The translations under genes were made by a program, and so were the position numbers. DNA of 44,975 nt from Bacillota bacterium (lineage in GTDB: Bacteria > Bacillota > Limnochordia > DTU087), in NCBI GenBank assembly GCA_012519025.1, contig JAAYQZ010000049.1, positions 1 through 44,975 of the forward strand. The letters are read 5' to 3'. Numbering within the stretch: position 1 is the first letter of the stretch; every line of letters starts with the position of its first letter. Positions 5,006 through 28,368 of the stretch are shown piece after piece. The notes under the pieces were generated by a model that searched no databases, was not told the origin of the DNA, and was given only the letters and a program-made list of their open reading frames with translations.

Positions 5006-5033
5006 TATTCATTGCTATTGGCTCGATTCCTGC
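5006..5033 (-). promoter_or_regulatory. Recurrent leader element GCAGGA-N17-GAATA (copy before the sugar-binding protein)
   Basis: GCAGGA (5033-5028 on the minus strand) is followed exactly 17 nt later by GAATA. It points toward the binding-protein gene and ends about 34 nt before its ATG. The same spacing occurs before three other genes in the window. Its function is unknown; it could be an operator, a start-site element or an RNA leader. Confidence 0.45.
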
Positions 5034-5079
5034 ATATTTGGGATTATTTACTGAATTGAAATCAGGGGATCACTATTGA

Positions 5080-5105
5080 GCAGGAGTAGTTCCGGCAGCG
5101 CTGAA
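5080..5105 (+). promoter_or_regulatory. Recurrent leader element GCAGGA-N17-GAA (copy before the ChbG-like gene)
   Basis: GCAGGA at 5080-5085 is followed after exactly 17 nt by GAA (5103-5105), in the direction of the deacetylase gene and 35 nt before its ATG. It is the divergent partner of the copy at 5006-5033, so both genes leaving this intergenic region carry one. Confidence 0.45.
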
Positions 5106-5140
5106 AGATAGGTTGACATTTCTTCTTGAGGAGGGAGAAC

Positions 5141-5992
5141 ATGACCCACAGACGGCTTACAAAGCTTTTAATCGTACATTGTGATGATATCGGAATGAGC
5201 AGGGAAGCCAATGCCGCGGCCAAAGAGCTTTTAATTCGGGGTTCTGCCACAAGTGGCAGTGTTATGATGCCTTGCCCATGGGCCTACGAGTTTATGACCT
5301 GGTTTAAAGAGCATTCTCAGCTTGATATAGGCATCCACATCACTTTGACAAGTGAGTGGCAAAGTTATCGCTGGCGTCCTTTAACTCAATCCCCAAGTCT
5401 TGTTGATGAATCTGGATTTATGTACAGAACTACACAGGAAACAGCTTTAAATGCCTCTTCGGCAGATGTTGCCCGGGAAACACTTAAACAGATTAAACAG
5501 GCCTTTGATTGGGGAGCCGCACCCACACACATTGATACTCACATGGGGGCTTCTTTAGCCCGATTGGATCTAGCAAAAGTATATATAGATGCTGCGCAGG
5601 AATATGCGATTTCACCTATGGTTGTAGATCCTGATCCGAAACTTCAAGCAGAACTTCTCAACCAAGGTTATGACCCGAATTTGTTAGACCTTATGCAAAG
5701 TGTCAGTACCCCTAAAATAACGGCCCTTTACGGCGCCGCGGAAGGTCGAACATATGCGGAGAAGAAAAAGCTGATCTATAAACAGTTGGAGAATTTGGAA
5801 TCCGGACTTACATATTTTATCATCCACCCGGCTTTAGAAAGTGACAGTATGCGAATTATCACCGATTCGTGGCAGCAGCGGGCATGGGAATATCGTATTT
5901 TCATGGAACCGGAAACCAAGGACAAGATAGAGGAATTGGGAATTAGGCTGACCAATTGGCGGGAACTGGCAGGAACACCGCCCGAAATTTAG
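5141..5992 (+). CDS. ChbG/YdjC-family carbohydrate deacetylase
   Basis: This is a 283-residue protein of the family that removes N-acetyl groups from chitooligosaccharides or related amino sugars with a divalent metal. Visible metal-site motifs are HCDDIG (Asp15-Asp16), GIHITLTSEW, and THIDTHMG. The hydrophobic strand before the DD motif is typical of the beta/alpha barrel. The start at ATG 5141 is fixed by GGAGGGAGAAC directly upstream; a TTG at 5126 lies within that ribosome site and is unlikely. It is cytoplasmic, with no signal. It is transcribed alone and ends in a clear terminator. It diverges from the sugar importer, which may bring in its substrate. Confidence 0.9.
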   Translation: MTHRRLTKLLIVHCDDIGMSREANAAAKELLIRGSATSGSVMMPCPWAYEFMTWFKEHSQLDIGIHITLTSEWQSYRWRPLTQSPSLVDESGFMYRTTQETALNASSADVARETLKQIKQAFDWGAAPTHIDTHMGASLARLDLAKVYIDAAQEYAISPMVVDPDPKLQAELLNQGYDPNLLDLMQSVSTPKITALYGAAEGRTYAEKKKLIYKQLENLESGLTYFIIHPALESDSMRIITDSWQQRAWEYRIFMEPETKDKIEELGIRLTNWRELAGTPPEI

Positions 5993-6002
5993 CGCTGGAA
6001 AG

Positions 6003-6052
6003 GGGGACCATCTGGCAGATGTGAAAGCTCATCCACGGGTCCCCGCTTTTTT
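6003..6052 (+). terminator. Rho-independent terminator of the ChbG-like gene
   Basis: GGGGACC (6003-6009) pairs with GGTCCCC (6038-6044). The arms enclose a smaller ATCTGGCAGAT hairpin and are followed by a run of six T from 6047. It stands between two convergent genes. Confidence 0.8.
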
Positions 6053-6070
6053 AGTTTGTAGGCATTTAAA

Positions 6071-7171
6071 TTAGTGGGGTTCGGCACCTGAAGCACCCCG
6101 GCTGCGCATAATCTGAGCCATCCCTTCTGTAACTTCAACAGTGCCATCCTGCAGTACCCAGAGCGCCTCAACCCCCGGCAGGGACTCCACAAGTTTTTTG
6201 CTTTTCTCCAAAGGCAGCAAGAACAGCTCGGTAGATAGGAAATCGGCCACACCGGAATCCTCTGCAACTACCGACACCGCCTGATAATAGTCTCCGGGCA
6301 TTAAAGTCTCGGGATCAATAATGTGGTGCAAAAGCCGGCCGTCCACCACGTAATATCGCTGGTAATCACCACTGGTCACAACAGAGGCATTGTTTATGAA
6401 AACTACATCCAATAAACCATCATCCGCCACGACAGAAGCTCTCGGATCTTGAATCCCAACTCCCCAGCGTTCCCGCAAATCATCTAATGGTTTACCTATA
6501 CCTCGAATATTGCCTCCGGCGCTGATCAAACAGGAATCAAACCCCATCTCCTCGAGCTCCAACGCCACGAGTTCTGTGGCGTAGCCTTTGGCCACAGCGC
6601 CAACGTCCAGGCGCATTCTGCCATCGGGCAGGAAAACAGTTCCTTTTTGTTCATCAACGATGATATCATCTATACTGCTGTACTCTGCAGCTGCTTGTAG
6701 TTCGTGCACAGGAGGCAGTTTCGCCTGTGCGGGGTCAATCCGCCCGACATCCCTGTAGTCATGCCAAATCCCAAGCACCGGGCCCAAAGCAATATTGGTT
6801 TTGCCTTCGGTAAGGGCATACCACTTTTTAGAAAACAAAATCATGTCAACTATTTCTTCGGCAACTTCTACCGGTCTAATGCCGGCATTTTCGTTAATAG
6901 TTTTGACATTATTAACGCCTGAATAGCTTTGGTAAATATCATAATAGCGATGCAGTTCTTGAAAGCGCTTATGGGCATAATTGAAGTATTCTTTAAACTG
7001 TTTTTCATTGCTTGTGTAACCAACGATGATAGTGACTGTGTCAAAGGTATCCATGAAACTATCGGTGTATTTTTCATAGGTGGGATTTTTACCACGTTCA
7101 TAAACAAAAAAAACGCCTGCAATTAAAATCGCCGCCAAAATAAGGATTACCCATCTCCGTCCAAACCACAT
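6071..7171 (-). CDS. apbE: FAD:protein FMN transferase (ApbE)
   Basis: This enzyme transfers FMN from FAD to a Thr or Ser of extracytoplasmic flavoproteins. The family core is clear: DVGAVAKGYATE, the glycine-rich ISAGGNIRGIGKP, then TSGDYQRY, HHIIDPETLMP and the late metal-binding segment ADFLSTELFLLP. The N-terminus (WVILILAAILIAGVFFVY) is a membrane anchor rather than a lipoprotein signal. The start at ATG 7171 follows GGGAGG by 7 nt; a TTG five codons earlier overlaps that site. A TTGTGG-N18-TATAAT promoter lies just upstream. The gene sits downstream of a secreted tandem-repeat protein that may be its substrate. Confidence 0.95.
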   Translation of the reverse strand: MWFGRRWVILILAAILIAGVFFVYERGKNPTYEKYTDSFMDTFDTVTIIVGYTSNEKQFKEYFNYAHKRFQELHRYYDIYQSYSGVNNVKTINENAGIRPVEVAEEIVDMILFSKKWYALTEGKTNIALGPVLGIWHDYRDVGRIDPAQAKLPPVHELQAAAEYSSIDDIIVDEQKGTVFLPDGRMRLDVGAVAKGYATELVALELEEMGFDSCLISAGGNIRGIGKPLDDLRERWGVGIQDPRASVVADDGLLDVVFINNASVVTSGDYQRYYVVDGRLLHHIIDPETLMPGDYYQAVSVVAEDSGVADFLSTELFLLPLEKSKKLVESLPGVEALWVLQDGTVEVTEGMAQIMRSRGASGAEPH

Positions 7172-7200
7172 GCAATTGCCTCCCAAAACACTTTTCCCCT

Positions 7201-7230
7201 ATTATACCCGACAAGAAGCCTCCCCCACAA
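7201..7230 (-). promoter_or_regulatory. Sigma-A-like promoter of apbE
   Basis: The minus strand carries TTGTGG (7230-7225), an 18-nt spacer and a perfect TATAAT (7206-7201), about 30 nt before the apbE ATG. The -35 box lies in the loop of the upstream hairpin at 7218-7241, so read-through from the upstream gene and local initiation may interact. Confidence 0.6.
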
Positions 7231-7241
7231 TGGAGGGAGGC
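7218..7241 (-). terminator. Hairpin after the tandem-repeat protein gene
   Basis: GCCTCCC and GGGAGGC arms (7241-7235 and 7224-7218) enclose a 10-nt loop and are followed on the minus strand by TTCTTGT, a weak U-tract. It is probably an intrinsic or partial terminator between the secreted protein gene and apbE. Confidence 0.55.
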
Positions 7242-7275
7242 CCTATCCACGCATATAGCATCTTAACTGTTTAAA

Positions 7276-8307
7276 CTAGTTTGCGTTCCCGTATGCTTCG
7301 CTGATCGCTGCAAGGTAACTTTCCACTGTCATTGTAACACTGGAAGTCAGCTCAGGCACGTCAGGTACTGCAACGTGGGCATCGTCAATCCGCTTAACCT
7401 TAAGCTCTTGAATCTCTTTAACAGTCTTTCCTACCATCCAACGACCAAGTTCTGCGGCCTGCTCGTACCATTCCTTGCCAATGGAGGAAACTCTGCCCAT
7501 TCCATAATCATCTTTAAGTTCCATTTTGCTCTTGATAGCCGCGCTGCGATCAGCTGTTACTTTAGCTGTGCGCTGATCAAAAGGTACTTTGCTTTGAATG
7601 GTGTCAATGCTGGCACCAACCACTTTGCCATCAGCATCAAACAAAGCGGCAACCATAGTCGTATCAACTTGGGCAGCGGCGGGGCGGGAAGAAGCTATAG
7701 AAACCTCGTGACCAAGACCGAGCTTCACACCGCCAGCGACAACAGACTCAGCATTTTCCCAGGCCTTTTCTACCGCAGCAATATAATCCTGCACAGTCAT
7801 GGTGACCAAAGAAGTAAGCTCGGGGACATCAGGTACTGCCGGATGGGCAGCGTCTCTAGCTTTGACTTTCATGGCCTTAACTTCAGCCACCGTTTTCCCA
7901 ACCATCCAGTTTTCCAATTCAGCAGCCTGTTCAAACCACTCTTTACCAATACCGGAGACCATACCCATACCGTAAGCATCGCCCAGTTCTTTTTTAGTTT
8001 TACCCAGTGCATTTAAGTCACTGGAAACAGTAAAATCTTTGTTGAAATTAACTTTGGTCTGAGCTGCATCTAAAACAACATGCACAATCTTACCATCGCT
8101 GTCAAAAGCTGCGGCAGCAGTTACACTGTCAACCTGTGCCATAGGTGGTACGACATTCCCTCTGGCATCGGTACCAAGATCAGTTGAGCTGGCAATAGAG
8201 GTTACCTGACCAAGGCCCAATTTCACCGGCTCTCCAGCGGCATGGCCCAAAGAAGACAAGGCCATTACAGTAGTAAGTAACACAGTAATTAAAAAGATTT
8301 TTCTCAC
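7276..8307 (-). CDS. Secreted tandem-duplicated protein of unknown function, paired with ApbE
   Basis: This is a 343-residue protein with a Sec signal (residues 1-24, ending GHAA) and two homologous units at about residues 28-187 and 194-342. Both units share VKLGLG, SIASS, AQVD, FDxDGK, DYGMG or AYGMG, SxIGKEW(F/Y)EQAAEL, WMVGKTV, and AVPDVPELTS-VTMTV. I recognise this repeat as typical of uncharacterised Firmicutes proteins but know no proven function. Being next to ApbE suggests a flavin carrier, yet the usual flavinylation motif (S/T-G-A-T/S) is absent from both units. It starts at GTG 8307 after AAAGGGGGAAA, and a good promoter lies 120 nt upstream. It acts outside the membrane. Confidence 0.85.
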   Translation of the reverse strand: MRKIFLITVLLTTVMALSSLGHAAGEPVKLGLGQVTSIASSTDLGTDARGNVVPPMAQVDSVTAAAAFDSDGKIVHVVLDAAQTKVNFNKDFTVSSDLNALGKTKKELGDAYGMGMVSGIGKEWFEQAAELENWMVGKTVAEVKAMKVKARDAAHPAVPDVPELTSLVTMTVQDYIAAVEKAWENAESVVAGGVKLGLGHEVSIASSRPAAAQVDTTMVAALFDADGKVVGASIDTIQSKVPFDQRTAKVTADRSAAIKSKMELKDDYGMGRVSSIGKEWYEQAAELGRWMVGKTVKEIQELKVKRIDDAHVAVPDVPELTSSVTMTVESYLAAISEAYGNAN

Positions 8308-8426
8308 AGGAAATTTCCCCCTTTGGTTAGTCTGCTATCATCCACAGTAATCGTATAGGATTATTGCTTCAATGAATGCCTCCCTTGCAAAATACTAATC
8401 TAGCCACTTTTAATTTTATCACCACT

Positions 8427-8455
8427 ATTCTACCACAGGAAAGAATGATAGCCAA
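8427..8455 (-). promoter_or_regulatory. Sigma-A-like promoter of the tandem-repeat protein gene
   Basis: The minus strand shows TTGGCT (8455-8450), a 17-nt spacer and TAGAAT (8432-8427). The resulting leader would be roughly 110 nt, long enough to hold regulation, though I see no known riboswitch in it. Confidence 0.6.
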
Positions 8456-8515
8456 GATAAATTCGTGAAAGTGAGTACTGTATCAATTAAAATGGTGGAA
8501 AACCGCCGATTTCAA

Positions 8516-8541
8516 AAGGCTGGCTCCCTGGAACCAGCCTT
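8516..8541 (-). terminator. Rho-independent terminator of the sulfatase operon
   Basis: AAGGCTGG and CCAGCCTT arms (8541-8534 and 8523-8516) enclose a 10-nt loop. TTTT follows on the minus strand, 32 nt after the sulfatase stop. Confidence 0.7.
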
Positions 8542-8572
8542 ATCGGTCGGGTTCTTCTGTTCTATTCCAAGT

Positions 8573-10024
8573 TTAGTGTCTTACATCAATGTGGTAGTGT
8601 TCTGTATGAAAACCGGGCCACCCTTGATTGCGGCGATCCCGCTCTGTATCACCTTTGCGGGGTAATGTGATCAAGCGCTCCCCATCAGAGAATTCTCCAC
8701 CCCGCCTTTGATCCCTCGCTACTAGCTCAGCATGGAGTTCTTCGCATTTTTCGGCATAGTCTTTGGAAACCGCCAAGTTCGTCAACTCATGGGGATCGTC
8801 TTCAAGATTAAACAACTGCTCCTGCCCACCCTCGGGATACCAGATATATTTCCAAACTCCGTCGGTGATTCCAAAATATGATGGTTCGTCATTAGCAGTT
8901 GATTCAACATAGCGTCGGGGCTTCGATATTTCTCCCCGGGCCAAAGCGATGAGATCCATCCCATCAACATCCTCGGGCACACTGCCACCTGCCGCTGCAA
9001 GCAAAGTCGGGAGAATATCGGCGTGTGTTACCGGTGTTGTCACCTTGGTGCCGTGCATGCGATTTCCCCAACTTTTCGGCATTCTAAGTACATAAGGTAC
9101 GTGTGAAGAAGATTCATGGAAAAACACTTTACCGCCTGTATTGTGATCCCCGAGATACTCCCCATGATCTGATGTGTAGATGATTAGGGTATCATTGAAA
9201 AGATCCAAATCCTGAAGCGCCGCGAAGACTCGACCCATATTGTAATCGATTTGAGTAATCAAGCCGTAGTAGGCCGCACGGGCTTCCCGTATAACCTCCG
9301 GTGGTACCTGATCTGAGGACCAACCCTGCCGCAAGCGCTCAAAGGCTTCAGGGCAGGCATCATCTTTTGCCCAATCACCAACAAAGGGCTCTGGAATCGG
9401 GCTGTTGCGATACATGGAATAGTAAGGCTCAGGCGGATCAAAAGGTGGATGCGGCTTTGTATATGAACACCACAGGAAGAAAGGTACAGACGGATCCCGT
9501 CTTTCTTTAATGTATTCAACACACTGCTCCGAAATCCAAGAGGTCAAGGTGAGAGATTCAGGGACTGTGGACATGGTAGGGTAAAGTTCATTTTGTCCCA
9601 GCCCATGCCGCATCGGCTGATAGGGTGAGCCGGATTTAGCCATTTCTCTGTAATAATCTGCCGGCAAAATCATCTCATCAAAACCGTGTCGAACACGTTC
9701 CGGACCAAAATGCATTTTTCCAATTGCAGCCGTCTGATAGCCCAATTCCCGCAAGTAAGCCGGCAAAGTATCATGCCTGCCCATAACGTTTGTTGTCGGA
9801 CCATTCCCCCTCATACCATGGGTGCCCACAAACTTACCGGTCATAATACCGACCCTGGCCGGTACACATATGGGACAATCGGAGTAAGCAGCAGAAAACG
9901 TCACTCCTTCCCGGGCCAGAACATCGTAGTGAGGTGTGCGCATAAAGCTCGGTGCCGCATCACCAGCAGCATCGAACCGCTGCTGGTCTGTGGTGATTAG
10001 CAAAATATTTGGTGCCGTTGTCAT
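8573..10024 (-). CDS. Sulfatase, Cys-type (arylsulfatase family)
   Basis: This 483-residue sulfatase would remove sulfate esters from sugars or other alcohols. The signature CVPAR (Cys53, motif CxPxR) is the site converted to formylglycine. Other family marks are DQQR at residues 13-16 (calcium ligand), GKMHFG, and SDHGEYLGDH (second metal site). No signal peptide is present, so the substrate is probably imported or the enzyme is intracellular. It starts at ATG 10024 after AAGGAGG. It follows the Gfo/Idh oxidoreductase by 29 nt in one operon and ends in a terminator. No maturase (anaerobic SME) is encoded in this window, so activation depends on a gene elsewhere. Confidence 0.95.
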   Translation of the reverse strand: MTTAPNILLITTDQQRFDAAGDAAPSFMRTPHYDVLAREGVTFSAAYSDCPICVPARVGIMTGKFVGTHGMRGNGPTTNVMGRHDTLPAYLRELGYQTAAIGKMHFGPERVRHGFDEMILPADYYREMAKSGSPYQPMRHGLGQNELYPTMSTVPESLTLTSWISEQCVEYIKERRDPSVPFFLWCSYTKPHPPFDPPEPYYSMYRNSPIPEPFVGDWAKDDACPEAFERLRQGWSSDQVPPEVIREARAAYYGLITQIDYNMGRVFAALQDLDLFNDTLIIYTSDHGEYLGDHNTGGKVFFHESSSHVPYVLRMPKSWGNRMHGTKVTTPVTHADILPTLLAAAGGSVPEDVDGMDLIALARGEISKPRRYVESTANDEPSYFGITDGVWKYIWYPEGGQEQLFNLEDDPHELTNLAVSKDYAEKCEELHAELVARDQRRGGEFSDGERLITLPRKGDTERDRRNQGWPGFHTEHYHIDVRH

Positions 10025-10053
10025 GTGTCATCCTCCTTGCGAAAAAATCTTCA

Positions 10054-11073
10054 TTAAAGGACCTCGACCCACTTTCCCACCCTTACCGCTTTCTGCAGGG
10101 CATCCATAACCCTCATATTCTTGTACGCGTCTTCAGGATCAACCGGCAAAGGCTGTTTGGCCAAAACTGCATCACAAAATGCTTTTACCTGCAGTTCGTA
10201 AGCTGACACAAAGGGAAGAGTTTCTTTGACAGCACCATCTTGCTCACCATAACCAACCCTTCCACCTATGATAAGTTCCGCCGGTGCATCTTCTGCCTTC
10301 CACGGGCGCCTAACTGTTATAACACCTTCCGTACCTACAATATCCATACACTGTCTTGGGGCTGCATCAAAGCTCACATCAAAGGATGCCACCTTACCGT
10401 TGGGGAAATTTAAGATACCAACCATAGAGGTGTCTACGTTATTTTCCAATTCAGCTTGGGCCGCTACAGTTACTGGTTCTTGATCAAAAATCAGGCGGGC
10501 ACTGTGGACACAATAGCATCCAACATCCATCAAACTGCCTCCGGCAAGAGTTTCACTGTAGCGGATGTTTGCCTTATCGGGCAGTGGGAATGAAAAAGCA
10601 GATCTAATCAACTTAGGTTCACCGATGTGACCCTCGGAGATTATAGTTTTGATCCGATCATATTGAGGATGAAACTGGTACATGAATGCCTCCATGAAAA
10701 ACACACCGGAGTCTTCACAAAAATCAATTATGCGTCGGGCTTCAAGGGCATCTATGGCAGCAGGTTTCTCACAAAGAACATGTTTGCCGGCTTTGGCTGC
10801 TTTAATAGTCCATTCCGCATGCAAGCTGTTGGGCAAGGGTATATACACAGCATCAATCTCGGGGTCATTCAAGAGCTCTTCATATGACTTGTACATTTTA
10901 ACACTTTCCAGATCCTTACCGGTATCTTTACTAAGCTGGTTCAAATAAGGTTTGAGCTTCTCCGCCCCGCGACTTGCCACTGCCTCCAGCTTTGCTTCCG
11001 CTGTATTCAATATGGCCGGCACCACAGAAATAAGACCTATGCGGGCCGTACTTAGAATTCCCCACTTGACCAC
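10054..11073 (-). CDS. Gfo/Idh/MocA-family NAD(P)-dependent oxidoreductase
   Basis: This is a 339-residue sugar or inositol dehydrogenase-like protein. The N-terminal nucleotide-binding fold begins at WGILSTARIG, and the conserved CEKPAA motif (the EKP lysine) follows the GKHVL strand. GGSLMDVGCY and the C-terminal sheet region match the family. The start is a GTG at 11073 preceded by AAAGGAG; longer in-frame readings lack ribosome sites. Its operon partner is the sulfatase, suggesting the two process one sulfated sugar or polyol, although substrate and cofactor cannot be read here. The MFS operon diverges upstream across a 240-base spacer. Confidence 0.92.
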   Translation of the reverse strand: MVKWGILSTARIGLISVVPAILNTAEAKLEAVASRGAEKLKPYLNQLSKDTGKDLESVKMYKSYEELLNDPEIDAVYIPLPNSLHAEWTIKAAKAGKHVLCEKPAAIDALEARRIIDFCEDSGVFFMEAFMYQFHPQYDRIKTIISEGHIGEPKLIRSAFSFPLPDKANIRYSETLAGGSLMDVGCYCVHSARLIFDQEPVTVAAQAELENNVDTSMVGILNFPNGKVASFDVSFDAAPRQCMDIVGTEGVITVRRPWKAEDAPAELIIGGRVGYGEQDGAVKETLPFVSAYELQVKAFCDAVLAKQPLPVDPEDAYKNMRVMDALQKAVRVGKWVEVL

Positions 11074-11220
11074 ATTATCTCTCCTTTGTTTGCGGTGTGT
11101 TTGCACCATTTTCATTCCACACAAATGCTATTCATCCTTTTTAGATCTACCTATAGGGATATGGTTTAGATCCTAATCTTCTCAAGCTTTAGAACCGGAA
11201 TGCTTAATGAGACCTGTTCT

Positions 11221-11246
11221 GCAGGAGTTTATCTGTATCTCGAGAA
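11221..11246 (+). promoter_or_regulatory. Recurrent leader element GCAGGA-N17-GAA (copy before the MFS gene)
   Basis: GCAGGA at 11221-11226 and GAA at 11244-11246 keep the exact 17-nt spacing seen before three other genes, oriented toward the MFS transporter and about 67 nt before its ATG. In the rest of the 240-base spacer I see no convincing -35/-10 pair. Confidence 0.4.
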
Positions 11247-11313
11247 AGACACTGAGGTATAAACTAAATGCAAGCCAACGCGCTTCATAATCCTAAAAAC
11301 GCCAGGTGATATA

Positions 11314-12957
11314 ATGCCAAATCCTGCAGCTCAATCCAAAACAACTTTTGCCGGGGTGTCCGGTGAAATACAAAAAGACTTGAATCTTTCTATTCGAGAA
11401 GGGGCCCTAAATACCGTGTTTTCCACGGTGATTACCGGTTCTTTTTTAGTTGGTTTTGCCTTAGAGCTCGGCGCCACCAAGGCTCAAATCGGTCTGCTCG
11501 CGGCTTTACCGCCTATGCTAAATGTGGTTCAGATTCTTGGCTCTTACTTTGTGACCAAAGTAGGCAGTTCGAAGCGGGTATGCGTCTTAAGTGCAGGCCT
11601 TTACCGATTGGTATGGTTATGTATCGCTTTGATACCTTTGATGATGTTTTGGTCTACCGGCCAATGGGGGGCTGTAACAGTACTTATTGCCTTTCTGACC
11701 GTTGCCAGCCTATTTGCTTCTCTAAGTGGAGTCGCCTGGATGACATGGGTTACTGAACTTGTGCCCGAGTCTGTGCGGGGGCGTTTTTTTGGGCGCCGCA
11801 ACATGATAGCCAGTGCCGCCGGAATGGTAGCATCTTTAGCTGCCGCCCAGTTCATAGATGGTTGGCAAATGAGTCAAAGCACATCTTCCGGACGGTTGAT
11901 GGGTTTTACCATATTATTCGGCGCAGGTTTGGCTTTCGGGATCGTGGGACTATTGGGACTGAGCCGCATTTCCGATGTTAAACTATCCAACAGCGGGAGT
12001 GAGTCTTCCTTTTGGCAGGACATCAGGCGCCCCTTTAAAGATCAAGGTTTTTTGCGGTGGATCCTATTTTCCACAATTTGGGCTTTTGCCGTTGGAGTCG
12101 GCAGCCCCTTCTTTGATGTGTATTTGTTAGATGATCTAGGCATGCAGTTTTCCTTGATTGCTATCTTGGGATTGGTCAGAGGGATTACAAACACCTTTGG
12201 AATGCGTCTTTGGGGCAATCTAGTAGACGGCATTGGGAGCAAACCGCTTTTGACAATATGCTCTGTAGGCGGGGCTTTGGTCCCTTTGTTGTGGGTGCTT
12301 GCAACTCCATCAAATTGGAGCATTCTTTGGGCGGTCTATTTTCTAAATGGACTTGCTTGGTCCGGTATCGGACTTGCCTCTTCCCAGCTGCTGATGTCCA
12401 CCGCTCCTCGGGAAAGTGCCAGTATGTATTTTGCTGTATTTGCGGCCATTACCGGTATCGCCGGCACAATTTCTCCCCTGCTTGGTGGCTCCTTGGCCGG
12501 CATATTTACTCCCCTTACTTTAGAGGTAGGTACAGTGAGTTTGGGCGGTTTACAGCTTCTATTTATAGTGACTGCAGTGCTGCGCTTACTGTCTTTGCTT
12601 TTGCTCAAACCGGTACCGGTGGCTAAGGACATGTCACTGGGGGAGATGATGACAAAGCTAAAAGCACTATCACCTTTGCAGGGACTCAAAATGCAGCAGC
12701 TCGGCGCCCACGCAGTGGAATCGACTTTTCTGCATATTGCCGAAGGTACGCTGCAAAGCGAGCGGCGCATCCGCGTACTCCTGGATCGCGGTATTGCCGT
12801 GACAGATCAGGTTAGAACCGCAACCAGGCAAATGGAAGGAAAAATCGATGCCGGTCTTTCCAGATGGGAAATGCTGTTGCAGACCCTCACAAATCCTTTA
12901 GTGAGATTCGTAAAACAAGTGATAAGATTTTTAAGGGATGATGAAAGTGATAAATAA
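11314..12957 (+). CDS. MFS transporter with a C-terminal cytoplasmic extension
   Basis: This 547-residue protein has about 12 hydrophobic segments in residues 1-433 and the MFS-type inter-helix motif PESVRGRFFGRRN (loop 2-3 region is less clear). Related proteins export drugs or import sugars; the substrate is not evident. Unusual is a charged, helical tail of about 114 residues after the last membrane helix, with LDRGIAVTDQVRTATRQME-like heptads that suggest a coiled coil. It starts at ATG 11314 with AGGTG upstream. The channel-like gene follows after 23 nt, so the two proteins are likely made together. Confidence 0.88.
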   Translation: MPNPAAQSKTTFAGVSGEIQKDLNLSIREGALNTVFSTVITGSFLVGFALELGATKAQIGLLAALPPMLNVVQILGSYFVTKVGSSKRVCVLSAGLYRLVWLCIALIPLMMFWSTGQWGAVTVLIAFLTVASLFASLSGVAWMTWVTELVPESVRGRFFGRRNMIASAAGMVASLAAAQFIDGWQMSQSTSSGRLMGFTILFGAGLAFGIVGLLGLSRISDVKLSNSGSESSFWQDIRRPFKDQGFLRWILFSTIWAFAVGVGSPFFDVYLLDDLGMQFSLIAILGLVRGITNTFGMRLWGNLVDGIGSKPLLTICSVGGALVPLLWVLATPSNWSILWAVYFLNGLAWSGIGLASSQLLMSTAPRESASMYFAVFAAITGIAGTISPLLGGSLAGIFTPLTLEVGTVSLGGLQLLFIVTAVLRLLSLLLLKPVPVAKDMSLGEMMTKLKALSPLQGLKMQQLGAHAVESTFLHIAEGTLQSERRIRVLLDRGIAVTDQVRTATRQMEGKIDAGLSRWEMLLQTLTNPLVRFVKQVIRFLRDDESDK

Positions 12958-12980
12958 CTTGTAAAGGGGTTTTAGCGTTT

Positions 12981-18736: not shown

Positions 18737-18757
18737 GATAGTATAAAAATGCAGTCA

Positions 18758-18792
18758 GAGGATGCCAGATGACGAACTCATCTGGTATCCTC
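18758..18792 (+). promoter_or_regulatory. Intercistronic stem-loop after the family-5 binding protein
   Basis: A 15-bp stem (18758-18772 with 18778-18792, one G-T wobble) carries a 5-nt loop CGAAC. No U-run follows, so transcription can continue into the permease genes. It is placed to shield the binding-protein mRNA from 3' decay. Confidence 0.7.
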
Positions 18793-18867
18793 CGCGTCAA
18801 AGAACACCTCCCGGTAGATTCCCTTGAATATATTATCTACTGATGTTGGGGGAAGGAGTACTTTTTT

Positions 18868-19851: not shown

Positions 19852-19865
19852 GGGAGGCCCGAAGC

Positions 19866-20696
19866 GTGAAACAGATTCTTAAAAACAAAAGCGCTCTTAC
19901 TGGAATTATCCTGATAGGCATATTAATCTTTGTGGCGATATTTGCTGAGAAGATTGCACCGAAAGATCCATATGAAATGGACATTTGGGAAAGCTACAGA
20001 CCGCCGGAGGGCCTAAAAGGTGAATATATTTTGGGAACCGATGATATGGGCAGGGACGTACTGAGCCGCATATTGGTTGGAGCCCGCATTTCCTTATTGG
20101 TGGCAGCTGTAGCTACCGGTGTTTCCTTGTTTTTCGGTGTGACTTTGGGGGCTGTAGCAGGTTATGTCGGTGGTGCGACTGATGCTTTAATCATGCGTTT
20201 TATGGATTTGATCTTGGCCTTCCCTTCCATTTTGTTGGCTATTGCTATTGTGGCCTCTATCGGCCCCGGTGTCGTTAATGCCATGTTGGCTATTGCCATT
20301 GTGCGTATACCTGCCATGGTAAGAGTGACTAGGAGCATGGTACTTGAGCTCAAAGAAGAAGAGTTTGTTATGGCAGGCCGGGCACTGGGGCTTTCCCATG
20401 CCAGAATTTTATTTCGCCATATATTGATCAACTGCTATGCACCTATCTTGGTGGTGGCCACTTTGAATATGGGCACTGCGATCACAGTTGAGGCCACTTT
20501 GAGTTTCCTGGGACTTGGTGCACAGCCACCTATTATCAGCTGGGGGCGAATGCTGGCCTTAGGACGAGAAGCTATTCGCTCTGCCCCCTATATGACCCTT
20601 TACCCGGGGCTTGCCATAGTTTTTACTGTATTGGGGTTCAACTTCCTTGGGGATGGTCTTAGAGATATATCCGATCCCCAGCTTAGGGGTAGATAA
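19866..20696 (+). CDS. ABC transporter permease, DppC/OppC type
   Basis: This 276-residue permease has an N-terminal membrane segment (residues 10-27) and the extracytoplasmic segment KDPYEMDIWESYRPPEG. It also carries GTDDMGRDVLSRILVGARISL, the DppC hallmark, and the EAA loop FVMAGRALGLSHARILFRHILIN. It starts at GTG 19866 after GGGAGGCCC. It is the last gene of its operon and a terminator follows within a few bases. The usual ATPase genes dppD and dppF are absent, so the transporter must borrow ATPases encoded elsewhere. Confidence 0.95.
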   Translation: MKQILKNKSALTGIILIGILIFVAIFAEKIAPKDPYEMDIWESYRPPEGLKGEYILGTDDMGRDVLSRILVGARISLLVAAVATGVSLFFGVTLGAVAGYVGGATDALIMRFMDLILAFPSILLAIAIVASIGPGVVNAMLAIAIVRIPAMVRVTRSMVLELKEEEFVMAGRALGLSHARILFRHILINCYAPILVVATLNMGTAITVEATLSFLGLGAQPPIISWGRMLALGREAIRSAPYMTLYPGLAIVFTVLGFNFLGDGLRDISDPQLRGR

Positions 20697-20724
20697 AAAA
20701 AGGGCCCATCTAGGGCCCTTTTTT
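20697..20724. terminator. Bidirectional Rho-independent terminator
   Basis: A-run, GGGCCC (20702-20707), ATCTA loop, GGGCCC (20713-20718), T-run. The A and T runs make it work in both directions, and it separates the permease operon from the convergent chemoreceptor, whose stop codon lies in the T-run. Confidence 0.9.
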
Positions 20725-22585
20725 ATGTGCCGATCTCGAAGCGGCGGATCAAAGCCAACAAGTCTTCTGCCATATGGCTTAAATCCTGGGCCCTAGAAGC
20801 CAAACTCTCAACGATGGCCGATTGTTCTTCAGTCATAGCGGCCATCTCCTGGCTTCCTTCTCCTATAACGGTTATGCCTTTTGTAATACTTTGAATCTGA
20901 TCTGTTAAGTGAGTCGCTTCCTCCAAAATACCTTTAAGAGAGCCACTACCAACCCTAACTATGTTCGATGTTTCTTGGGCTTTATGCACACCGGCCTCCA
21001 TACCTTCCACTGCCCTTTGTGTATCGCCTTGAATATCGGCGACCAAGGCAGCAATATCTTGGGTGGCCTGCTGAGACTGTTCGGAAAGTGTCCTTACTTC
21101 CTCTGCCACTACAGCGAACCCGCGCCCGTGCTCACCGGCCCTGGCCGCTTCAATGCTGGCATTTAGGGCAAGCAAATTGGTTTGCTCAGAGATGTCTGTA
21201 ATTACCTCCACAATTTGACTGATAGCAACAGAGCTTTTGCCCAGATTATCTATGACCTGACCCAAGGCCTCTATATCTTGGCGAAGTTCATCTGTATGGG
21301 CTACAGTTGTTTCCAGTGCGTTTTCGCCCTCATTTACCATACTGGATATTTGCGAAGCTGATGCAGAAAGATCCACGGCACTGGTGTGCATCGTTTGAAC
21401 GGTAGCTGCAAATTCTGTGGCGGTATTGGCCATCTCCGTAATCGATGCACCGGTCTCTTCCGTTCCGGCAGACAGCTCTAGGGAATATGTCTGTACATTA
21501 TATCCCGATTGCTGGACATTGGCTATCAGGCCCTTTAAGGCATCGACCATTTCCGTGAACGCCTGGGACAGGGAACCAATTTCATCTCTTCGCTCAATAG
21601 AAACCGAGTGTCTAAGATCCCCTTTGGCCAAAAGCTCGGCATTCTCCGTAAGTACAATAATGGGTCTAATCAGTTGATCAGAAAACAGCGAAGCGGCCAA
21701 TATTCCCACTAAAAGAGCCACCAATAGAACCGGTACAAGTCTCTTGCGCAAAACATCCAATCCTGCCAACACATCACTCGTCCTGGTGATTTGAGCGCTA
21801 GACCATCCTGTAATGGGTATCGGGGCATAGGCAATGGTCATTTCCACCCCGTCCAGGACGAAGTTCTCCAGCGCATTGCCACCGGCCAGCATGTGTGCGG
21901 CGATTTCTTTGAGCTTGGGATGCTCATCAACGAATCTGCTGTTGCCTACATATTTGCTATCTTGGTGGGCTATAGTATTGGAATTATTATCAATCAGCCA
22001 CCCGTATCCATGCTTGTTCAGTTCCTCTTGGGCCAAAAGATTCCAAATGTAATCAAATTTTACTGCAGCACCCAGCACTCCGGCAAACTCATCATCATAC
22101 CCAATGATAGGCCGTGCTACTATGAAAACCGGATCTTTAGTTGTCGTACTGGGCAAGGGGTCGGAAAACGCAACTTGGCCTGTTTCCACAACTTGGCGGA
22201 AATAGGCAGTACTGCCGATCTGCATTGTATCGCCCCATGTCGTGTTTGCGCTTCCGCTTAAATCTGCTACAAACATCATTTCATAATCTGGATGATCTTC
22301 CAAAATCCCCTCCAGCATGGGCTTTTGCTCAGTCCAGTTCATGCCTTTAATACCTGTTGCCCCGGATACGGCATCAACCTCTCGACTGGCCGACTGCACC
22401 CAGTTGGAAATGATTTCCGCCGTTTGCAGTGCTTCAGTTTTTGCCCCGTTGGCGATGGTGTCCTGCAGTACATCTCGTGCCTGCAAATAGGCCACAAATG
22501 TTGTTCCTATAACTATTGCAAAAATAATCAAGCCCGTCCCAAGGATCAGTTTGCCTTTTAGTCCCAAGCCTTTTCCGTTACTCAC
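20723..22585 (-). CDS. Methyl-accepting chemotaxis protein (dCache-type sensor)
   Basis: This transmembrane chemoreceptor of about 620 residues has an N-terminal helix near residues 10-35, an extracytoplasmic dCache-like sensor ([23 protein letters not shown], then [31 protein letters not shown], read in parts), and a second helix near 285-305. A HAMP segment follows, then the signalling hairpin whose tip reads [33 protein letters not shown] in parts. The start is GTG 22585 by its distance from GAGAGG; a GTG two codons earlier is possible. It has a sigma-A-like promoter and a palindrome in its leader. The ligand is unknown; the neighbours hint at peptides or sugars. Confidence 0.94.
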
Positions 22586-22625
22586 TGGCACCTACCTCTC
22601 TGCTAACAGCCTACATATTTTTTGT

Positions 22626-22640
22626 TAGTAATGATTACTA
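22626..22640. promoter_or_regulatory. 15-bp palindrome in the chemoreceptor leader
   Basis: TAGTAAT-G-ATTACTA is a perfect 7-1-7 palindrome just downstream of the predicted -10 box of the chemoreceptor at 22655-22660. A repressor bound there would block early transcription. No regulator gene lies nearby to name. Confidence 0.4.
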
Positions 22641-22654
22641 TATTTTACTTATTT

Positions 22655-22682
22655 AGTATATCATGTTCATGCTTTTTAGCAA
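22655..22682 (-). promoter_or_regulatory. Sigma-A-like promoter of the chemoreceptor at 20723-22585
   Basis: The minus strand carries TTGCTA (22682-22677), a 16-nt spacer and TATACT (22660-22655). The -35 box overlaps the stop end of the upstream GH3 gene, so the chemoreceptor can be transcribed both alone and by read-through. Confidence 0.5.
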
Positions 22683-24835
22683 CTTGTCGGGGGCTGTGCA
22701 AACATGAACTCAACTTCCACCGCCTTCCCTTCTACTCTAAACCCGCCTTTTACTAGGTTTTGCAGGTCGGCATTTTCACCCATTCCAGCAGGCTGCCTTC
22801 CTCCCACTATCACCTCAAACAGACCCGGTTCCACGACACGTGTGCCTGTTTCCATCACTACAGCCATATCAAACGCTGTCAAAGTAAAACAGACCCTTTG
22901 GCGCTTTTTAGGCTTTAGATGGACGCGATGGAACCCTTTCAGGGCGTGGATGGGAACAGAGGCATGTGCTTTTGCGTCTTTAAGGTAAAGCTGGATGACT
23001 TCGTCACCGGCCAAAGTCCCGGTATTCTCCACAGTAACTTCCACTTGGATGCTTTCCCCGGCCTGAATCGAACCTGATGTTATATTAAGATCTGAATAAG
23101 CAAAGTCTGTATAGCTGAGACCGTGACCGAAAGGATATAATGGTGTCCCTTGAAAATATCTGTAAGTGCGGTTGACCATACTGTAATCTTCAAAATCCGG
23201 AAGATCATCCACAGATTTGTAAAAAGTGATAGGCAACCTGCCTGCCGGATTGTAGTCTCCAAAAAGCACATCTGCTGCCGCCCGGCCGCCTTCCTCACCG
23301 GGATACCATGCTGCGAGTATAGCCGAAACATGCTCTTTTGCCCAATTAACGGCGATGGCGGTCCCGCTCATTAACACTACTATTGTGGGAGTGCCGGTGG
23401 CATAAACCGCCTGCATCAGCTGTTCCTGCACACCCAACAGTGTGATGTCTCCCAAATCACCCCCATCACCTTCTTCTCCCTCAATTCGAGGTGAAAGACC
23501 AAGACAGAGAATGGCAACATCAGACTTTCCGGCTATCTCAACAGCTGCAGCGAACCCTTCCTGAGAATCACCGCGCAGGTCGCAGCCTTGAGTGTGGTAA
23601 ACAATAGTCTCGGGGCTGACTTTCTCCTTAATGCCGTATAAGGGTGTAGTATAGCGGGAAGGGGTACCATTGTAATTACCCAAAAGGGCATCGAGATTAT
23701 CTATGTTGGGTCCGATGACTGCAACTGAATTTACCTCTTTGCTGATAGGCAAAATCCCATCGTTTTTCAACAAAACTATCGACTCTCGGGCCGCTTCCAA
23801 AGCCAACTTTCGATGTGTGTCAGAGTCATTTACTGCATATGGGATCTGGCTGTATGAAACTGTTTCTTCTGGATCGAACATTCCCAGTTCCATCCTGGCT
23901 TTAAACAGCCGTTTCACTGCCTTATCCAGCGTCCTCTCTTTTACGAGGTCCTCCTTAACAGCATCAATAAGCAGGGCATAAAGGGTGCCGCAGCACAAAT
24001 CACAGCCGTTGTTCATGGCCAATGCAGCGGCTTCCAGGGGAGTTTCTACTATTTTGTGGAATTTGTAAAAATCACTGATGGCCCAGCAGTCGGATACGAT
24101 GTAGCCATCAAAACCCCATTTGCCCCTTAGAATATCTTCCAACAGAGTCTTACTTGCACAGCAAGGCTCACCATTGGTCCGGTTGTATGCACCCATAACT
24201 GAGCGTGCTTTCCCGGCCTTGATGGCTGCTTCAAAAGCTGGCAGATAAGTTTCCCACAGATCTTTGTTGTTCACTTTTGCATCAAAACTGTGCCTTTCCG
24301 CCTCAGGTCCACTGTGTACAGCAAAATGTTTGGGCGTGGCGACTACCTTCAAATACTTGGGATCATCCCCCTGCAGGCCTTTTATGAAAGCAACAGCAAG
24401 CCGACTTGTCAGATAGGGATCTTCTCCGTACGTCTCCTGTCCTCGGCCCCAGCGAGGATCTCTGAAGACATTTATATTTGGCGACCACATAGTCAAACCT
24501 GTGTATATGTCGCGAATGCCTTGACGTACAAACTCATGGTGTTTAGCTCGGGCTTCGTCAGCAACAGCCGCGGCAACTTCATGCAGCAAGTGTTCGTTCC
24601 AGGCTGCCGCCAGGCCAATAGCTTGAGGAAATACTGTAGCAATTCCGGCCCGCCCTACACCGTGCAAACACTCATTCCACCAGTTATAGGAGGGAATCCC
24701 CAGTCTGGGGATGGCAGCTGCGCTATGCACAGTTTGAGACACTTTCTCTTCCAATGTCATGCGGTCGACAAGATCATTTACCCTAGTGTTAAAATCGAGG
24801 GCGGGATCGAGAAACGGATACTCTGTTAATTCCAT
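22676..24835 (-). CDS. Glycoside hydrolase family 3, beta-xylosidase-like
   Basis: This 719-residue GH3 enzyme has the (alpha/beta)8 domain, the alpha/beta sandwich and a C-terminal fibronectin-III-like domain (from about residue 590; VEVTVENTGTLAGDEVIQLYL). The nucleophile is Asp249 in GYIVSDCWAI. Lys169-His170 and DPRWGRGQETYGEDP are conserved sugar-binding segments. SYNWWNECLHGV and the whole N-terminus match the beta-xylosidase branch rather than broad beta-glucosidases. It has no signal peptide, so it acts on imported xylo-oligosaccharides or similar. It starts at ATG 24835 after GGGGAGGAG. It is last in the run nucleoside hydrolase-GNAT-esterase-GH3. Confidence 0.93.
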   Translation of the reverse strand: MELTEYPFLDPALDFNTRVNDLVDRMTLEEKVSQTVHSAAAIPRLGIPSYNWWNECLHGVGRAGIATVFPQAIGLAAAWNEHLLHEVAAAVADEARAKHHEFVRQGIRDIYTGLTMWSPNINVFRDPRWGRGQETYGEDPYLTSRLAVAFIKGLQGDDPKYLKVVATPKHFAVHSGPEAERHSFDAKVNNKDLWETYLPAFEAAIKAGKARSVMGAYNRTNGEPCCASKTLLEDILRGKWGFDGYIVSDCWAISDFYKFHKIVETPLEAAALAMNNGCDLCCGTLYALLIDAVKEDLVKERTLDKAVKRLFKARMELGMFDPEETVSYSQIPYAVNDSDTHRKLALEAARESIVLLKNDGILPISKEVNSVAVIGPNIDNLDALLGNYNGTPSRYTTPLYGIKEKVSPETIVYHTQGCDLRGDSQEGFAAAVEIAGKSDVAILCLGLSPRIEGEEGDGGDLGDITLLGVQEQLMQAVYATGTPTIVVLMSGTAIAVNWAKEHVSAILAAWYPGEEGGRAAADVLFGDYNPAGRLPITFYKSVDDLPDFEDYSMVNRTYRYFQGTPLYPFGHGLSYTDFAYSDLNITSGSIQAGESIQVEVTVENTGTLAGDEVIQLYLKDAKAHASVPIHALKGFHRVHLKPKKRQRVCFTLTAFDMAVVMETGTRVVEPGLFEVIVGGRQPAGMGENADLQNLVKGGFRVEGKAVEVEFMFAQPPTSC

Positions 24836-24877
24836 AGTGCTCCTCCCCTTTTTTTTAAAAATATGGGGCTTCCTCTT

Positions 24878-26116
24878 TTACTTGGCGGGCCGGTAAGGTG
24901 CTTTGTTCTTTTGCGAAAACACCCATTCCCGGACAGCATTCGTGCTGTACACCTGCATCCACGAAAGATGCCCATTGGGTAAAATAGTTCCCGGAATATA
25001 TTCTGTGTACAATATGTCGGCACCAAGCGCCTCTGCCTTGGCCAGCTGTCTGATGGCCGCGGTGTCTGCTTTCTCACCTCGTAGAAAACCGTTCCAAGCT
25101 TCATCTCCCACTTGTTTAGCTGCAACCGACCCAAGTTCTTCCAGCTGTTTGAACGTTCTGCGCATACCTTCTACTAATGGCGGCATATCATCGGCAGCTA
25201 TAAAACCCCAAATAGGTTTGTTGAGCAATTTTTTCACTTGCTTATCTTGATATGTTCTGGCACCACATACCGTAAGCAAAGCGGCATAGAGCGTTGGTTC
25301 ATCCATAGCCAGCATGAAAGTCCCCATAGACCCCATAGATAAGCCGGTACCGTAAATTCTGCTGGTATCTATGTTATGTAATTCTATCAGTTCATGAATA
25401 ACGTTTAATACGTTTTTCAAAGCATAAGAAGCCTCATAAACCGGCTCTTCTTTTGTTCCTACATTCACGGCCCAGCTTGTATCCAAAGGGCACTGGGGGG
25501 CCAGTACATAACAAGGGTGTGCGGCTTGAGCAGCAGGAGTCGCCCATTCTAAGGCACTGCGATTGGCCAAAAGCTGTGTGATGTTGTTGTCGCCTCGCTC
25601 GCCGGCCCCATGCAAAAACACCACCAATGGCAGTGCTTCCTGTCTATCTTTAGGCTCAAACAGGCGATAGTCTAATGTTGTGCCATGGTGCATGTTCTGG
25701 TAGGTATGTGCCCCAAAGATGCCGTCAACTTCCAGGTTGCACTCCTCTGTATTGACAAAAGAACCGGCAGGCAGCTGCATTCCTCCCAAAGCAGATATAT
25801 TCCGCTTCTGCACCACACTTAGACAGATAGGTAGGCGGTGATTAGATTGATTTGCGTAAAGCAAGGTGCTGCCAACGGGACTTCCCGGAACAGGATCAAC
25901 AGCTAATTCAAGCATTACATAGGAACCCCTATTTTGCACATCACCCTTACCGCCGCTGTCGTTTACATAGCAGCGAGTGATAGAGCGACCCGGCACAGAA
26001 AACATTTCCCCGGAAACTGAACCGGCAGCTATCTGTTCCGGATACTTTAAAGCAACTGCTGTCACTTTTTGACCCTCTTCTAATGTCTCCGCAATCGAGA
26101 TTACCCTCACTTTCAC
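24878..26116 (-). CDS. EstA-like carbohydrate or phenolic ester esterase with N-terminal Ig-like domain
   Basis: This 412-residue protein has an N-terminal Ig-like beta domain (about residues 1-105) and an alpha/beta hydrolase domain beginning at LPLVVFLHGAGERG (oxyanion-hole region). The nucleophile is Ser260 in GLSMGS. Asp in AADDMPP and His in LPNGHLSW complete a likely triad. The layout resembles the Thermotoga EstA type. No signal peptide is seen. It starts at GTG 26116 after AAGGAGGG. Next to a xylosidase it may deacylate acetylated or feruloylated oligosaccharides, but this is inference. Confidence 0.85.
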   Translation of the reverse strand: MKVRVISIAETLEEGQKVTAVALKYPEQIAAGSVSGEMFSVPGRSITRCYVNDSGGKGDVQNRGSYVMLELAVDPVPGSPVGSTLLYANQSNHRLPICLSVVQKRNISALGGMQLPAGSFVNTEECNLEVDGIFGAHTYQNMHHGTTLDYRLFEPKDRQEALPLVVFLHGAGERGDNNITQLLANRSALEWATPAAQAAHPCYVLAPQCPLDTSWAVNVGTKEEPVYEASYALKNVLNVIHELIELHNIDTSRIYGTGLSMGSMGTFMLAMDEPTLYAALLTVCGARTYQDKQVKKLLNKPIWGFIAADDMPPLVEGMRRTFKQLEELGSVAAKQVGDEAWNGFLRGEKADTAAIRQLAKAEALGADILYTEYIPGTILPNGHLSWMQVYSTNAVREWVFSQKNKAPYRPAK

Positions 26117-26194
26117 GGTTATACCCTCCTTGTAACATGACCGTTTTTTTAATTGCCCCTACCAGTGAACCTAACGTATGGGTTGCAGTTTTCC

Positions 26195-26683
26195 TTAAAG
26201 CCTTTTAAAGTAGCGAGCAATGGGCAAAACTGTAAAACCGGCCTTTTCATATGTGGCTCTGGCCGGCTCGTGGCCGGGATCGCCACCGGTTTCCACCATG
26301 GCAGTCTTCATCCCCCGCGATTTCATGATATCTAAAGCGAAATGTGTGAGCGCTGTACCTATTCCCTGTCCTTGATGCTTTGGGTCAACAGCGAGCATAT
26401 AGATTTCACCGACATTGTTTTCTTCATTCAACTTAAGTACCACAAATCCCACAACAGCACCGGAATCGGGGTGTTTAGCCACCCATGTACTGTCCTGTTT
26501 GGCAAGACAGGTAGCTTCGATGGTTTCTGCCTGAGTGAGAGGCCAGTGTGGGTACAGCTCTTCAAAGACAGCCGACCCCAACACTTCTTTTAATGAACTA
26601 AAAACCGGTGCCCAGGCCCGCAGTGACAACCTGAGCACACAATCCAAGTCATCTGGTGTGTAGGTTTCTATTTTGAATTCCAT
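26195..26683 (-). CDS. GNAT-family N-acetyltransferase
   Basis: This is a 162-residue acetyl-CoA-dependent transferase. Motif A is visible as IYMLAVDPKHQGQGIGTALTHFAL (the Q/RxxGxG/A pyrophosphate loop), followed by MKTAMVETGGDPGHEPARATYEKAGFTVLP. This arrangement resembles small-molecule acetyltransferases rather than ribosomal ones. It starts at ATG 26683 after AAGGAGG. It sits between the nucleoside hydrolase and the esterase in one run of genes. The substrate is unknown. Confidence 0.9.
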   Translation of the reverse strand: MEFKIETYTPDDLDCVLRLSLRAWAPVFSSLKEVLGSAVFEELYPHWPLTQAETIEATCLAKQDSTWVAKHPDSGAVVGFVVLKLNEENNVGEIYMLAVDPKHQGQGIGTALTHFALDIMKSRGMKTAMVETGGDPGHEPARATYEKAGFTVLPIARYFKRL

Positions 26684-26712
26684 ATTTTCCTCCTTAGGTT
26701 CGACTGGTATTT

Positions 26713-27615
26713 CTAAACCCCTTCCACAGTTTGGAAGTACTCATTGAAAAACCCTTTCACATCAACCTGGGTGGCGATTCGATTGTTCGTCTTGCTAATC
26801 TTCGGATCCCACAAAGTCATTCCTTTAAGCATACTGCTTTTTAGTTCGATCTCGATCAAACCAGTCTGATATTCCATCAGGTGGGGTGCAAATATAGCAG
26901 CTGCAGCTAAGGGATCATGAAACGTAATTATAGGGGATTGTCTTGACCACACTTCCGCAGCATCCCGGATGAGATCCAACACACCGCCTTTAAGCTTTTT
27001 ACCCCACTGTTCCCTAGGCATGCAGCATTTTGTAGTTACATCAAGACCTACGGAAAGTTTGGACAAACAATCTGTATCATAGACAATGAAAGCCGCATGG
27101 GGATCAAGCAGCATATTCCATTCTACAGGGTAACGAACATGCTCATTGGGGAATGAGAATACGCCCGCCATCATGACCAGCGATTTCAGCAAACTCGGTA
27201 TTTCGGGATCCAGCTTAAACAATACAGCTATATTGGTCAAAGGCCCTATAGTCAAAAGTGTGATTTCATGGGGTCGGCTGCGGATGGTTTCTCTTAAAAA
27301 ATCAACTGCAGTGTTGGAAACAAAGTCTGAAGCATGGGGCCATTGATCGAGAATTTCCCCCTGCTGGGCCACTGTCTGCCGCTGGGGAACTAACAAAGGG
27401 TTCCCCAAGCCGGCATGAATGGGCACATTATCCCGGCCTGCCGCTTTGCATACCGCATCTGCTAACATAGCCCGTTTTTCCGGTTCACCGGACACAGTGG
27501 TAACACCCAACAAGTCGCATCTTGGGTGAGCCAAAAGATATGTAAGGCAAAGCGCATCATCAATATCAGAACCAATGTCGGTGTCTAAGATGACGGGTAT
27601 CTGCTTATCAACCAT
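26713..27615 (-). CDS. Inosine/uridine-preferring nucleoside hydrolase
   Basis: This roughly 300-residue enzyme cleaves the N-glycosidic bond of ribonucleosides. The calcium site DTDIGSDIDDA is at the N-terminus, the family TIGPLTNIA and the metal-ligand region FHDPLAAAA are present, and MMAGVF matches the fold. The ATG at 27615 follows AGGAGGGCTATC; an earlier in-frame start has no ribosome site. It begins the run that ends in the GH3 gene. Nucleoside salvage supplies ribose and bases, which fits the ribose-type importer elsewhere in the window, though no shared regulation is shown. Confidence 0.93.
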   Translation of the reverse strand: MVDKQIPVILDTDIGSDIDDALCLTYLLAHPRCDLLGVTTVSGEPEKRAMLADAVCKAAGRDNVPIHAGLGNPLLVPQRQTVAQQGEILDQWPHASDFVSNTAVDFLRETIRSRPHEITLLTIGPLTNIAVLFKLDPEIPSLLKSLVMMAGVFSFPNEHVRYPVEWNMLLDPHAAFIVYDTDCLSKLSVGLDVTTKCCMPREQWGKKLKGGVLDLIRDAAEVWSRQSPIITFHDPLAAAAIFAPHLMEYQTGLIEIELKSSMLKGMTLWDPKISKTNNRIATQVDVKGFFNEYFQTVEGV

Positions 27616-27700
27616 GATAGCCCTCCTAAGAGATTGGTGATAATATCTTTCTCTCAAGAAAGGCAGGGTCCTTTGTCAATACCCATAATCTTTAAAACCC

Positions 27701-28138
27701 CTACATACAGCTGAGCTCCATTTCCAAGCGATCAAGTGCAGCAAGAATGTCTACGACTTCATCTTGGACTCTTTTTGCCTCCTCACGGCTTTGATTGATC
27801 TTGTTTTGTGTGATCCAGTCGGAGACTATGTTGTCAAAGACAATGTCCATAAACCGCTGAAAATCCGTTATTCCCACACTTACCTCAATAGCCACATGAA
27901 CACTGCCGAGCTTTTCCTGGAGCTCGACAAGACTCTGCTGTACCTCGTTTAAAAGGGTTTCTGCCTGCCGGATCTTTTTGTGTTTGATCATACCGGTCAG
28001 CACACCCCCACCGAGCATATCGTAAAAACCCCAACCACGTGCACTTTTTAGATTTTTCTCCACTTCCTGAAGCAAAGCAATTACTTCATGGGCAATGGCT
28101 CGTGTTTCATTGATTGCTTTCAACTGATCCATATCCAC
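27701..28138 (-). CDS. Uncharacterised helical protein
   Basis: This 145-residue protein with no signal peptide is made mostly of amphipathic helices (QLKAINETRAIAHEVIALLQEVE, then IRQAETLLNEVQQSLVELQEKL, read in parts), with a coiled-coil character. A distinctive SARGWGFYDMLGGGVLTGMIKHKK segment near residues 30-50 is of a type I associate with uncharacterised Firmicutes proteins. I cannot name a function. The GTG at 28138 follows AGGAGGG by 7 nt, which is better than the longer reading. It is divergent from the rhamnosidase gene and probably monocistronic. Confidence 0.7.
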   Translation of the reverse strand: MDMDQLKAINETRAIAHEVIALLQEVEKNLKSARGWGFYDMLGGGVLTGMIKHKKIRQAETLLNEVQQSLVELQEKLGSVHVAIEVSVGITDFQRFMDIVFDNIVSDWITQNKINQSREEAKRVQDEVVDILAALDRLEMELSCM

Positions 28139-28304
28139 GGAATATCCCTCCTCAGCTCCCAAAATGTCGAACCAAAACACAGTCTTACCCGGCACTGCCC
28201 GGTTTGTACTCCTTTGTCAAGATACTGCTGTTTCCTTCATTTCAGCTGAAGATGCTGGCCAAAAACAGATCTCCCCCCTATCAACCAGGCCTAAGAGCGA
28301 AAAT

Positions 28305-28335
28305 CCCAATAGACCACAGAAGTCCATCTACTGGG
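28305..28335. promoter_or_regulatory. Imperfect inverted repeat before the rhamnosidase gene
   Basis: CCCAATAGA (28305-28313) and TCTACTGGG (28327-28335) pair at 8 of 9 positions around a 13-nt loop. The repeat ends just before the leader element at 28341. It could be an operator or an RNA hairpin; the rest of the spacer 28139-28396 shows nothing else clear. Confidence 0.3.
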
Positions 28336-28340
28336 AGTTT

Positions 28341-28368
28341 GCAGGAAACTCATCCGTTGTCGGGAATA
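28341..28368 (+). promoter_or_regulatory. Recurrent leader element GCAGGA-N17-GAATA (copy before the rhamnosidase)
   Basis: GCAGGA at 28341-28346 and GAATA at 28364-28368 repeat the exact spacing of the copy before the sugar-binding protein. Here GCAGG is also the loop of a short GAGTTT/AAACTC stem. The element ends 28 nt before the ATG. Confidence 0.45.

Follow-up and report, generated by a model that had tools for sequence, protein, structure and literature searches.

A predicted sigma-H promoter element upstream of sugar uptake and breakdown genes in an uncultured Bacillota class

The window analysed here, a stretch of 44,975 bases, corresponds to contig 141 in a draft genome of 2.40 Mb with a completeness of 98.6%. 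It carries the hexamer GCAGGA followed after exactly 17 bases by GAA in front of four unrelated genes, which raises the question of what kind of signal this is and how many other genes share it. From sequence comparisons, we find that the element is very probably a sigma-H (SigH/Spo0H) promoter of the form RNAGGA-N17/18-GAAT.

Spaced elements in the leaders of the window

We found the four sites of the preliminary description exactly where it had placed them, and they are the only GCAGGA-N17-GAA matches in the whole window, in which about 0.85 would be expected by chance given 42 occurrences of GCAGGA. All four are directed at their gene and lie in non-coding leaders, the latter with p ~7e-5 because non-coding sequence makes up 4,164 of the 44,975 bases. 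On the minus strand, the predicted SigH-type promoter at 5006-5033 (-35 GCAGGA at 5033-5028, N17, -10 GAATA at 5010-5006) lies ~36 nt before the start, at 4971, of a gene for an extracellular solute-binding protein (SBP_bac_1; 3628-4971, minus; Pfam PF01547), the gene that opens an operon for a sugar ABC importer. Back to back with it, the predicted promoter at 5080-5105 (plus; GCAGGA-N17-GAA) lies 35 nt before the likely ATG, at 5141, of a YdjC/ChbG-like deacetylase gene (5141-5992, plus; PF04794). The third, at 11221-11246 (plus; GCAGGA-N17-GAA), precedes the start of an MFS transporter gene (11314-12957, plus; PF07690) by 67 nt, and the fourth, at 28341-28368 (plus; GCAGGA-N17-GAATA), precedes that of a GH78-type alpha-L-rhamnosidase gene (28397-31075, plus; PF17389 and PF08531) by 30 nt. 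These distances, counted from the end of GAA, are close to the 28-67 nt first reported.

Beyond these four, we observe AAAGGA-N17-GAAT at 11140-11115 on the minus strand, a predicted SigH-type promoter for a divergent Gfo/Idh/MocA oxidoreductase gene (10054-11073, minus; PF22725/PF01408; likely ATG at 11073 with the ribosome site AAAGGAGAG) and the sulfatase gene behind it. Given the element pairs at 5006-5105 and 11115-11246, two divergent intergenic regions would thus hold back-to-back promoters of SigH type. Across the five sites the -35 box fits RNAGGA, being GCAGGA in four and AAAGGA in the fifth, and the -10 box reads GAA in 5/5, continued as GAAT at 5033 (minus), 28341 and 11140 (minus) and as GAAA at 5080 and 11221.

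Genome-wide spacing of the two boxes

We examined 765 kb of genome stretches together with the window (810 kb, about a third of the genome), with genes called by a simple home-made dicodon model. Among 63 GCAGGA in gene-facing leaders, GAA follows at N17 in 32 (binomial p ~1e-37) and at N18 in 11, with a count of 0-2 at each of the other spacings from 8 to 29. The proposed enrichment of the spaced motif in leaders is therefore borne out in this sample, and the equal frequency in coding regions that would have spoken against it is not seen, as the 543 coding GCAGGA display no spacing peak (12 at N17, within a range of 5-19 across spacings). As a control, reverse-strand leaders are partly contaminated by divergent genes and were replaced by the spacing scan and by coding GCAGGA; for whole genomes we used the N20 spacing, a backwards-pattern control being poor because the backwards pattern is a different hexamer.

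Additionally, an unsupervised 5-mer/gap/3-mer dyad scan of 490 leaders ranked GCAGG-N18-GAA, which is the same element as GCAGGA-N17-GAA, at the top, above the SigA-like TTGAC-N18-TAT. Upon aligning the flanks of 30 leader sites, we observe a weak A/T run 3' of GCAGGA, T or A as the base next after GAA, and no T at the position three bases 5' of GAA (the R position). The distance from element to start in the sampled leaders is 47 to 205 nt. The four sites in the window belong to a large class of promoters.

Comparison with known SigH promoters

SigH is the transition-phase sigma factor of Bacillota, tied to starvation and sporulation, and its B. subtilis consensus in the literature is RNAGGAWWW-N11-RNNGAATWW, in which RNAGGA and GAA are separated by 17 bases. 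The flank preferences of the 30 leader sites agree with this consensus. A spacer of 17 or 18, as seen for the 63 leader GCAGGA, is also found in 30 published C. difficile SigH promoters with AGGN-N17/18-GAA, 15 of them at 17 and 15 at 18 (Table 3 of PMC7438776); these are the 30 of 40 entries in which both boxes are visible, the 10 entries lacking or departing from one box having been left out and spacing not having been a selection criterion. Furthermore, with a matrix based solely on the C. difficile promoters, 80 leaders score at least 10 in the forward direction against 22 in reverse.

The element thus resembles the SigH promoters of B. subtilis and C. difficile in its -35 AGGA, its -10 GAAT and its 17-18 spacer, and the systems are also alike in having the element before spo0A and a SigH gene in the genome. 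Two differences are apparent. The C. difficile promoters favour AAAGGA or AGAGGA, whereas the -35 here is mostly GCAGGA, its initial GC being a local preference outside the C. difficile consensus, and the targets here, unlike those of the two model species, include sugar importers and glycosidases.

In terms of mechanism, GCAGGA would be the -35 and GAA(T) the -10 read by RNA polymerase carrying SigH, with region 4 of the factor expected to contact RNAGGA and region 2 GAAT across the 17 or 18 intervening bases. Transcription would begin a few bases 3' of GAAT, and SigH would presumably bind these sites and drive expression at the growth transition or upon starvation. If the four sites and that at 11140-11115 are SigH promoters, genes of sugar import and breakdown would come under SigH.

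Conservation across the class and the spo0A locus

Conservation in orthologous leaders, which the preliminary description had named as a check, is observed for the MFS gene, with GCAGGA-N17-GAA kept in three relatives (G001, G004 and G005) at 68-73% protein identity. The orthologues of the sugar-binding protein keep the N17 spacing with other, weaker -35 boxes (GGAGGT in G001, AAAGGA in G003, GAAGGG in G002 and G004), and the Gfo/Idh orthologue in G001 has GGAGGA-N17-GAAT in its leader. Across the class, GCAGGA-N17-GAA exceeds its N20 control in 61/61 genomes, with a median ratio of 3.2. Leader-specific peaks, based on small numbers, are found in G026, G049 and G054, that of G049 lying in NNAGGA and not in GCAGGA.

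spo0A is a textbook SigH target. It is likewise a SigH target in C. difficile (PMC7438776). In the genome under study, GCAGGAATGTTTTGTTGGTTAGCGAA stands ~107 nt 5' of the receiver start of spo0A (C127), with the element at C127:1168. Among 26 spo0A loci of the class with readable orientation, [AG]NAGG[ATG]-N17/18-GAA lies upstream in 24, 23 of them with RNAGGA, while on the reverse strand the element occurs in 0/26, with ~0.06 per locus expected by chance. The genome carries two spo0A genes (C127:1275-2054 and C153:12533-13324), both above the family cut-off, and duplicated spo0A is common among relatives.

Another occurrence of GCAGGA-N17-GAA lies within dnaG (C44:480-505), ~0.8 kb 5' of sigA, and is conserved in the family. 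The sigA operon of B. subtilis has a SigH-dependent promoter, P3. We set aside the dnaG site as a P3-like promoter of sigA, as it is located in protein-coding sequence, for which reason its conservation may stem from the protein.

The cognate sigma factor

Canonical SigH is encoded in the genome (C132) and scores 375 bits on TIGR02859, whose cut-off is 294.8. There is also a SigH-type paralogue, SigH2 (C163:9875-10456), which reaches 253 bits on TIGR02859 and passes NF006148, NF006145 and NF006147 at their cut-offs. The third SigH-like factor (C125:24260-24844) is more remote, with 114 bits, under all cut-offs. SigA, recognised by its sequence and its location after dnaG, is also encoded, as are SigE, SigG and SigK. 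The trio of SigH-type factors recurs in most of 60 related genomes.

With three SigH-type factors (375, 253 and 114 bits) in the genome, the element is most likely read by canonical SigH, possibly together with the paralogue SigH2. We consider it rather improbable that the promoters belong to SigH2 or to the third factor instead, the sugar genes then forming a separate regulon. Most of the class carries all three factors, and G054, with no SigH above the cut-off, yet has 152 N17 matches against 45 controls; moreover, SigH and SigH2 have stretches of regions 2.4/4.2 such as TRQKHIPLNSY and KSIDNA in common, so that an overlap in their recognition is plausible. However, family f13, in which no match falls within the SigH2 range, retains the N17 excess (median ratio 2.6, as against 3.3 in the others). 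The element also precedes spo0A, which canonical SigH is known to control.

In the high-GC genome G026 (stretches L127-L146), GCAGGA prefers N17 whereas GGAGGA and GAAGGA prefer N18, in small numbers, a split by -35 version that might stem from ribosome sites or from the presence of two SigH-type factors. A division of N17 and N18 between SigH and SigH2 was rejected, since family f13, without a match in the SigH2 range, has both spacings.

Readings other than a promoter

Among the roles first proposed, that of a promoter for a global regulator, most likely SigH, stands, while an operator, a conserved mRNA 5' end and a small-RNA target fit worse, because the boxes are fixed, the spacer is 17 or 18, the sigma consensus is matched and the element is placed before spo0A across the class. 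An operator bound by a repressor or activator is very unlikely: a catabolite regulator would suit the sugar genes, but the element is asymmetric and gene-directed and allows a spacing of 17 or 18 as promoters do, and the genes served are as diverse as HU, parB, divIC, glmU, degS and yajC. The leader location and the moderate distance from the start codon would also agree with a conserved mRNA 5' end, a leader structure or a small-RNA target, yet this is highly implausible given start distances of 47 to 205 nt, an unconserved sequence between the boxes, boxes that are those of a known sigma consensus, and an Rfam scan that matched 0 families in the window. That the four sites are chance matches in a short window, from a motif picked post hoc by eye with ~0.85 matches expected, has a negligible probability and is refuted by the genome-wide spacing peak (p ~1e-37), in addition to the conservation in relatives.

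Breadth of the predicted regulon

Returning to the SigH promoter reading, the genes that directly follow exact sites in the sampled sequence include those for HU, ParB, DivIC, a PBP5-type carboxypeptidase, a GlmU-like protein and DegS, and further CheW, signal peptidase, YajC, RecD2 and a ComM-like protein; sugar genes behind exact sites include those for ROK, Gfo/Idh, GH127, MFS and class II aldolase proteins. From the excess of NNAGGA at N17/N18 over other spacings, we estimate that ~78 of 490 leaders, or ~16%, carry the element. The promoter class is of a known kind, with a target set that is broad and partly unusual, and any novelty may lie in how broad the regulon is (~16% of leaders) in a class that has been little studied and has two to three SigH-like factors.

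An expanded SigH regulon has been described in Sporomusa sphaeroides KIAC, where the SigH motif (AGGA/GAAT, 17-18 spacers) was assigned to 322 start sites, or 16.1% of assigned promoter motifs, and covers many metabolic genes (PMC12456013). It has AGGA-N17/18-GAAT in common with the element described here, and its share of assigned motifs is about the same as the share of leaders that we estimate here from sequence. The highlighted targets in Sporomusa are Wood-Ljungdahl genes (PMC12456013), whereas the predicted targets here, in another class, are genes of sugar uptake and breakdown. This suggests that sugar use in the class is tied to SigH, much as was recently reported for the Wood-Ljungdahl genes of Sporomusa (PMC12456013), and an expanded SigH regulon is probably not limited to one acetogen lineage. 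More tentatively, SigH might have become a near-housekeeping second sigma factor in this class, with the duplicated factors sharing or dividing some hundreds of promoters, through which the decision to sporulate would be linked with sugar foraging and with envelope and chromosome functions. The element itself offers a promoter map that is ready for use in a class-wide group of uncultured bacteria carrying sporulation sigma genes.

Other sites in the window

The preliminary description had also drawn in three hexamers without a spaced partner, and these are indeed present, namely GCAGGA at 36811-36816 (plus) before a chemoreceptor, GCAGGA at 44950-44955 (minus) before an amino-acid binding protein and GCAGGG at 42311-42316 (minus) before a ribose-type binding protein. 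Their membership is not convincing: all three lack GAA at both N17 and N18, the doubtful GCAGGG having GTA at N18, and they are therefore not to be grouped with the four. A weak candidate by pattern alone is GTAGGA-N18-GAAT at 36778-36804 (minus), 148 nt 5' of a MatE gene (35190-36656). Finally, an inverted repeat, GTGCAGGGGAAGG...CCTTTCCTTGCAC, lies at 41230-41345 on the minus strand, in the gap that separates the gene for the ribose-type binding protein from its neighbour.
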